NCBI GenBank assembly: GCA_946187935.1
Contig: CAMHSJ010000001.1
Coordinates: 1-64,000 of the forward strand
Length of the DNA: 64,000 bases
DNA from: an uncultured Clostridia bacterium
Lineage (GTDB): Bacteria > Bacillota > Clostridia > Saccharofermentanales > Saccharofermentanaceae
Direction of reading: 5' to 3'
Below are positions 56,444-59,501 of this stretch, one piece after another. Numbering within the stretch: the first letter of the stretch is position 1; every line of letters starts with the position of its first letter. Under the pieces are notes generated by a model that worked only from the letters and a program-made list of their open reading frames with translations, did not search any database and was not told where the DNA came from. The position numbers and the translations under genes are program-made.

Positions 56444-56746
56444 TTATAATGATGACAAGAATTTCAACAAAGCATCTTGTTGATCTTTATTCAGCTTACT
56501 GAAATGATCAATTAGCAATGCCTGTTTTTCTGTTAGTGTTACACTTTCGCCAGAGTCATTAAAGAACTGGGACAATGTGATATTGAACGCATTGCATATT
56601 TTCTCGAGAGACTGAACTGTTGGGCAAACATTCTTACGATACCATGATGAAATGGTTGTTTGCGGTATGTCAGATTCGACGGATAATCTGTATTCGCTCC
56701 AGCCTCTTTCTGTTCGTAAATCCAGAATCTTTTTCAACACATCCAT
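56444..56746 (-). CDS. XRE-family helix-turn-helix regulator
   Basis: 100 residues from ATG 56746 (the ATG 8 codons earlier is equally weak). The HTH spans about 4-58 ('LRTERGWSEYRLSVESDIPQTTISSW', 'SLEKICNAFNITLSQFF'), typical of phage-repressor-like proteins. A short helical C-terminus may dimerise it. It is divergent from the ChW protein gene across 181 AT-rich bases and probably regulates it or itself. Confidence 0.85.
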   Translation of the reverse strand: MDVLKKILDLRTERGWSEYRLSVESDIPQTTISSWYRKNVCPTVQSLEKICNAFNITLSQFFNDSGESVTLTEKQALLIDHFSKLNKDQQDALLKFLSSL

Positions 56747-56927
56747 TTTGTACCACTCGATAGTTAGCATTTTAGTAAATTTAATACGATGTTCACCAAC
56801 AGATAATAATTTTAGTAGTAGAATAATAACGACAAATAGTTATATCCAGCATTACCGTTCTGAATGTACTAATGCTTTTCAAATGAATATTAGCTATTTG
56901 CAGCCTATTATGAAGGAGGATTGATTA

Positions 56928-58559: not shown

Positions 58560-58644
58560 TCTTCTGTTATGAATAATCATTCTTATTGCGTTGCCATGTT
58601 ATCGTAAAATTGGAATGCACATTGCAGCAGAGAAAATGTGTCAA

Positions 58645-58708
58645 ATTTGCATATCGTGTTGAATTATACATGCAAATATTGCATAATAAGCTTAGGGGCG
58701 TATGCAAA
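58645..58708 (+). promoter_or_regulatory. Promoter and repeated operator of the MNT-HEPN operon
   Basis: TTGAAT (58659-58664), 17-base spacer and CATAAT (58682-58687) form the promoter. An inverted repeat ATGCAA-ATA-TTGCAT (58670-58684) sits in the spacer and -10. Related words ATTTGCATAT (58645) and TATGCAAA (58701, touching the start codon) flank it. These are likely sites for the XRE domain of the antitoxin, giving self-repression. Confidence 0.65.
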
Positions 58709-59182
58709 ATGACTGAATTAAAGACTCTTAGAATCGAGAGAAAACTCACCCAAAAACAGGCTGCGGATACGATAGGCGTTTCCTTAAGGTCTTATGTCTC
58801 ATATGAGAACGACAGAGCTAAGTCAAATACTGCAAAATACAGATTCTTCCTGCAGGAGATATCCAAGCTCAATGTTGTCGATGAAGATCACGGAGTACTG
58901 ACATTAGATGAGATCACTTCCGTTTCGAATACTATTCTTCCCGATTACGATATAGATTACTGCTATTTGTTTGGTTCATATGCAAAGGGGGAGGCTGCTG
59001 ATTCAAGTGATGTAGATCTTCTAATTGCAACTAAGATTACCGGCATACGATACTATGAGATCGTTGAGCGTCTACGCGAGAAGCTTCGCAAAAGGGTCGA
59101 TGTTATTAACCTCAGCCAATTGGTCAACAACAGGGAACTCTTAAATGAAGTGCTCAAGGATGGTATCAAGATCTATGGGTAA
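58709..59182 (+). CDS. mntA: MNT nucleotidyltransferase antitoxin with N-terminal XRE domain
   Basis: 157 residues from ATG 58709 (AGGGG upstream); the longer tracked ORF starts within the promoter. Residues 1-50 are an HTH ('LRIERKLTQKQAADTIGVSLRSY'). Residues 60-155 are a minimal nucleotidyltransferase with the G-S-x10-D-x-D active site ('GSYAKGEAADSSDVDLLI'). In type VII systems MntA adds AMP to a Tyr of the HepT toxin and so silences it. The N-terminal HTH is not part of the standard MntA and would let the same protein act as repressor. It overlaps the toxin gene by 8 bases. Confidence 0.85.
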   Translation: MTELKTLRIERKLTQKQAADTIGVSLRSYVSYENDRAKSNTAKYRFFLQEISKLNVVDEDHGVLTLDEITSVSNTILPDYDIDYCYLFGSYAKGEAADSSDVDLLIATKITGIRYYEIVERLREKLRKRVDVINLSQLVNNRELLNEVLKDGIKIYG

Positions 59183-59501
59183 CATTAAAGGCGATGACTA
59201 TTTTTCTTCCAAGATCGTTGCTGATCTATCCTTTATTGTTGAACACACGAAGGATATCGATATATGTGAGTTGAGCCATAACGAGGTGTTGTTGGATTCG
59301 ATGATGTTTCGTTTGATACAGATATCCGAGAATGCCAAACGGTTGAGTGATGACTACAAGGAAAGACGCAACTACATACCTTGGATAGCCATATATGGTT
59401 TAAGAAACAGGATCGTTCATGATTATGGAAGTGTTGATCTGGATGTTATCTATTCAACGCTGAAAGATGACATACCTGTATTACTCGAAAAACTTCAGTG
59501 A
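59175..59501 (+). CDS. hepT: HEPN-domain toxin (HepT)
   Basis: 108 residues from ATG 59175, inside the end of the antitoxin gene. All-helical, with the diagnostic 'RNRIVHDYG', an R-x4-H-x-Y motif near the C-terminus: Arg and His form the RNase site and Tyr is the residue that MntA AMPylates. 'LDSMMFRLIQISENAKRL' is the dimer helix. Length and motif match HepT. The toxin cuts RNA when free of modification; the pair acts in stress or phage defence. Confidence 0.88.
   Translation: MGNIKGDDYFSSKIVADLSFIVEHTKDIDICELSHNEVLLDSMMFRLIQISENAKRLSDDYKERRNYIPWIAIYGLRNRIVHDYGSVDLDVIYSTLKDDIPVLLEKLQ

Follow-up and report, generated by a model that had tools for sequence, protein, structure and literature searches.

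The window, the 64-kb stretch of DNA analyzed here, carries two genes that we regard with good confidence as a chromosomal type VII HepT-MntA operon, in which the antitoxin MntA bears an XRE domain and serves both as repressor of the operon and as AMPylator of the toxin HepT. Both genes, mntA and hepT, are real and complete. MntA probably has two roles in one protein, inactivating the toxin and determining how much of it is made, and its interest lies in having an enzyme and a probable repressor in one chain, together with clear, conserved operators. Judging from sequence comparison, repression of the operon by MntA is very likely; AMPylation of HepT, which we read from intact motifs, is likely. 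An initial reading of the DNA letters by themselves (the sequence-only reading) had proposed that one protein AMPylates and represses. The promoter-recognition half of that proposal has gained support from conserved operators and from their association with the recognition helix, and the AMPylation half continues to stand on motifs.

An XRE domain on a type VII antitoxin

Pfam searches, an AlphaFold2 model and Foldseek were used to characterize mntA (positions 58709–59182, plus strand), which encodes 157 amino acids arranged as an XRE (HTH_3) domain at residues 1–54 followed by a minimal nucleotidyltransferase at residues ~64–157. HTH_3 matched residues 4–37 with an E-value of 3.9e-7, which passes the Pfam cut-off, and NTP_transf_2 (E 5e-9) and Polbeta (E 1.3e-14) both matched residues 76–156. 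The nucleotidyltransferase motif GSx10DxD, which marks type VII MNT proteins, is present as GSYAKGEAADSSDVD. The model (pLDDT 87.6) comprised five HTH helices in an XRE fold, a loose linker at residues 58–60 and a nucleotidyltransferase fold, placing the N-terminal domain in the XRE family by both profile and predicted structure. The complete GSx10DxD motif and the N-terminal HTH claimed by the sequence-only reading are thus both borne out. The top solved-structure matches to the model were the MNT antitoxins of the HEPN-MNT complexes 8xeh, 8xeo and 7bxo. HigA2 appeared lower in the Foldseek list, with ~50 residues matched, and no structure in that list covered both domains well.

Directly adjacent, hepT (59175–59501, plus strand) encodes an HEPN RNase-like toxin of 108 amino acids, identified by Pfam, profile search and fold matches. 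PF01934 matched with an E-value of 9e-18, and the protein contains RNRIVHDY, the complete Rx4HxY motif that had been reported from the letters alone. A profile built from HepT relatives matched the HEPN toxins 5yep_B and 7ae9_A, and the same two entries (5yep and 7ae9) were the top fold matches of the HepT model, with weak E-values. The two genes are co-oriented and overlap by 8 nt with the MNT gene first, which is the type VII gene order, and the −8 offset is shared by 43 relatives. Against the NCBIfam equivalogs, MntA scored 52.4 bits (NF047752) and HepT scored 33.2 bits (NF047751), each with a cut-off of 60 that was set for annotation and is not a mechanistic criterion. Since both fall under the cut-offs, we consider them divergent members rather than the equivalog itself.

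The promoter and its predicted operators

A candidate sigma-70 promoter, TTGAAT-17-CATAAT, lies at 58659–58687 on the plus strand, with the −35 element at 58659 and the −10 element at 58682–58687. It scored 9/12 in a consensus scan, a score that taken alone is no better than that of shuffled sequence; in relatives, a TTGACA-like −35 element is positioned between the two upstream operators described below. The main predicted operator, O2, is ATGCAAATATTGCAT (ATGCAA-ATA-TTGCAT) at 58670–58684, a perfect 6-3-6 palindrome over the spacer and the −10 element. The inverted repeat noted by the sequence-only reading is therefore there in exact form, and relatives keep it in the same position, at about −32. 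There was one exact occurrence of TGCAANNNTTGCA in the 64-kb window, and a genome search likewise found the exact 15-bp form ATGCAANNNTTGCAT once in 1.95 Mb.

The sequence-only reading also described two related half sites, of which one is a half site and the other is not. O3, ATGCAA at 58702–58707, is a half site directly 5′ of the start codon, and TGCA occurs within 13 nt before the ATG in 68/85 S-class relatives. The other, predicted operator O1 (TGTCAAATTTGCA, 58639–58651), is a degenerate full palindrome with 2 mismatches to TGCAANNNTTGCA, 32 bp from O2 center to center. Relatives hold an intact second palindrome at this site, and the window copy has decayed. Farther upstream, at 58615–58627, is another TGCA inverted repeat with a different spacing (ATGCACATTGCA); in relatives, a further TGCA repeat is often present 25–30 bp or so beyond O1.

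Comparison across relatives argues strongly for DNA binding by MntA. Perfect 6-3-6 palindromes numbered 67 in 101 HTH-MNT promoters, whereas dinucleotide shuffles averaged 3.2 (maximum 9). The palindromes clustered around positions −32 and −64 relative to the ATG. Wherever a locus had two good sites, O1 and O2 were spaced 30–34 bp apart, or about three helical turns (49/49 loci). No such excess was seen in the promoters of 19 HTH-less MNT genes, where counting all gap lengths gave 2 palindromes versus 2.6 in shuffles. One of those 19 belongs to a second HEPN-MNT pair in the window genome (contig 18, 31932–32556; L002, L162), which has neither an HTH nor promoter palindromes. A palindromic operator is thus conserved together with the protein in the protein's own promoter, as is characteristic of autorepressors.

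The operators also differ with the predicted recognition helix of MntA, which we placed from the AlphaFold2 model and the operator comparison at residues 25–35 (SLRSYVSYEND; 58781–58813, plus strand). Proteins with SLRSYKSYEND go with GTGCAAN3TTGCAC; those with V30 or I30 go mostly with ATGCAAN3TTGCAT; PLRTYQNYE (Q30) goes mostly with ACGCAAN3TTGCGT; and PLRTYKRYE goes with GTGCCAN3TGGCAC. Residue 30 ranked first of 157 protein columns in mutual information with operator base 1 (excess 0.51 bit, against 0.29 for the runner-up), and 82/87 loci fit the rule that K30 accompanies G, and V/I30 accompanies A, at that base. One locus, L089, has an I30 protein inside a supported K30 clade and has ATGCA operators. 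On the tree, we found 2 supported phylogenetically independent pairs, which gives no significance, though the direction was never contrary. Because changes on the tree are few, the association is strong yet mostly between clades. The natural variants K30/GTGCA, V/I30/ATGCA and Q30/ACGCA are ready material for work on specificity.

Taken with the conservation of the operators, the helix association strongly supports the prediction that the DNA-binding domain of the antitoxin recognizes the promoter of its own operon. It is very improbable that the palindromes serve another regulator and that MntA binds elsewhere through its HTH. The genome does encode other XRE proteins, including one ~2 kb upstream. 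However, the operators accompany HTH-MNT in a wide range of taxa and vary with the MntA helix, and no such operators precede HTH-less MNT genes. The upstream neighbor is a small XRE-like protein of 108 amino acids (56444–56770, minus strand) whose gene faces away from mntA/hepT.

Conservation, toxin loss and distribution

GSx10DxD was present in 103/105 distinct relatives, and the remaining two were broken reading frames. A HepT with Rx4HxY adjoined the antitoxin gene in 66/105 loci, and the acceptor Tyr was kept in all 66 of those intact toxins. These observations, together with purifying selection on the MNT domain, argue against a type II-like arrangement in which HTH-MNT acts as operon repressor and neutralizes HepT by binding it, with AMPylation weak or irrelevant. 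Such an arrangement would draw on the MNT:HEPN complexes that form in solved systems (PMC7641770, PMC11586414) and on the DNA-binding domain that is usual in type II antitoxins; we consider it unlikely.

At the other loci, the neighboring HepT was a fragment (22/105) or absent (15/105), and the rest were contig ends. Intact HTH-MNT accompanied by a truncated or missing HepT was therefore found at 37/105 loci (including L003, L012, L014, L053, L099, L109 and L110), so not every HTH-MNT is part of a working toxin–antitoxin pair. In L099 and L109, what remains of HepT reads MDN..ND joined to DIP or NDIP.., which is what a deletion between the repeated Lys-Asn-Asp codons close to the two ends of hepT would be expected to leave.

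This decay raises the idea that HTH-MNT has outlived its toxin and now persists as a self-controlled antidote to incoming related toxins, or as a regulator, while toxins are being lost. Several toxin-damaged loci do keep intact operators and antitoxin, and in the one pair of such copies compared (L014 and L112), antitoxin pN was far below pS. For the window locus, we nevertheless hold this to be rather improbable, a little more so than the type II-like arrangement. As in 66 relatives, HepT in the window has its full length and every conserved residue, and the single exact operator occurrence in the genome gives no sign of a wider regulon.

The full-length HTH-MNT fusion was found in 17/115 genomes of the same family and in about 15/391 genomes of the class. 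In a species-level genome collection, the best 80 of at least 524 relatives all aligned across the whole fusion; those 80 were mainly from Clostridia, with MAGs of Erysipelotrichaceae, Acholeplasmatales and Spirochaetia also present. Among 399 genomes sampled across the phylum, only the window’s own genome passed E 1e-30. Since that sample held no other strong match, the fusion appears to be concentrated in a few groups. A plasmid collection, searched by protein and by DNA, gave no match. Relatives also occur on a few viral-type contigs, and HTH-MNT genes on contigs classed as viral (L032, L033 and L117–L119 from IMG/VR, and MT836394.1) have predicted operators whose half sites (TCGCCA, ATGCAA and ACGCAA) vary as the recognition helix does.

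Downstream of the pair, a GGDEF/EAL gene is kept in 38/85 genus genomes. The DNA upstream of that gene differed in 11/11 compared loci, and the empty-site test could demonstrate no clean insertion site. The PADLOC candidate matches (PDC-S09) are confined to the MNT domain and provide no evidence for phage defense here. The sequence-only reading had allowed that the fusion might already be well described as common. A literature search limited largely to openly accessible papers found no description of an XRE-MNT fusion with HepT, but among Clostridia the fusion is no rarity, and its two domains will already be visible in domain databases.

A second class of HTH has been joined to MNT in the same family. 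At seven loci (L020 and L022–L027), an HTH_26-type domain is fused to MNT, with a HepT-like next gene at several of them. In 6/7, the promoter contains a pair of AACAC-N4-GTGTT operators at about −64 and −33; L022 has the proximal site only. Because this second class has its own operator pair, an XRE-type HTH has probably been joined to an AMPylating antitoxin, or re-fitted, more than once, in each case with a pair of operators ~31 bp apart. Two HTH classes on MNT in one family suggest repeated selection for promoter binding by an AMPylating antitoxin.

Proposed working of the operon and known systems

The sequences themselves show the domains, the motifs, the gene overlap and conserved operators that vary with the recognition helix; DNA binding, repression, AMPylation, toxicity and any link from the enzymatic state of MntA to its DNA binding are inferred for this operon. 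Since MntA has an XRE domain and its promoter has operators, it is expected to repress its own operon. Dimers of MntA would bind O2, the palindrome that covers the promoter spacer and the −10 element. O1, about three helical turns farther upstream, would assist, as might the half site O3 beside the start codon, and bound MntA would block transcription of the operon. The nucleotidyltransferase domain would move AMP from ATP onto Tyr84 of HepT, within Rx4HxY, and so block the RNase; we assign this activity because of homology to the Shewanella oneidensis system (PMC7641770). If free MntA dropped, or if unmodified HepT occupied MntA, repression would ease and both proteins would be made again.

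Coupling of AMPylation with repression in MntA is speculative. In one tentative version, which we think possible without favoring it, HepT that lacks the modification, or a shortage of ATP, sequesters MntA or removes it from O1/O2 and so induces the operon, and AMPylated HepT frees MntA to repress. If this were true, the operon would sense the modification state of its own toxin through one polypeptide. Conditional cooperativity has been described for type II antitoxins that neutralize by binding. To our knowledge, self-regulation of expression in type VII systems has barely been studied.

Autorepression is a logic common to type II XRE antitoxins, such as PezA and HigA2, and probably to the window MntA. 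The likeness extends to the HTH domain itself (PezA 2p5t; HigA2 7ewc), but PezA and HigA2 neutralize by binding and have no nucleotidyltransferase domain. The Xre-MNT system of Streptococcus suis also has XRE and MNT proteins in one autoregulated toxin–antitoxin operon; there, however, they are two proteins, with MNT described as the toxin and XRE as the antitoxin (PMC8406773). The HEPN-MNT complexes of Legionella pneumophila (8xeh, 8xeo) are the best structural match of the window MNT domain, but the solved MNT chain is ~108 amino acids long and has no HTH, and the text of that paper mentions neither transcription nor HTH (PMC11586414).

The S. oneidensis pair SO_3166/SO_3165 shares with the window operon the MNT-then-HEPN overlap, GSx10DxD, Rx4HxY and the MNT fold (PMC7641770, PMC4621449). 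Its MntA (SO_3165) has no predicted DNA-binding domain. SO_3165 was nonetheless reported to act on its own promoter, binding it and repressing it 1.6-fold (PMC4621449), so the principle of an antitoxin with two functions already has a precedent. The SO_3165 promoter has two dissimilar palindromes, whereas the window system has an XRE domain before MNT and repeated, conserved operators. Based on the comparative operator and helix evidence, we therefore describe a type VII HepT-MntA system, mainly of Clostridia, whose antitoxin appears to have turned dedicated autorepressor; its variant features are the dedicated DNA-binding domain and the operator array.
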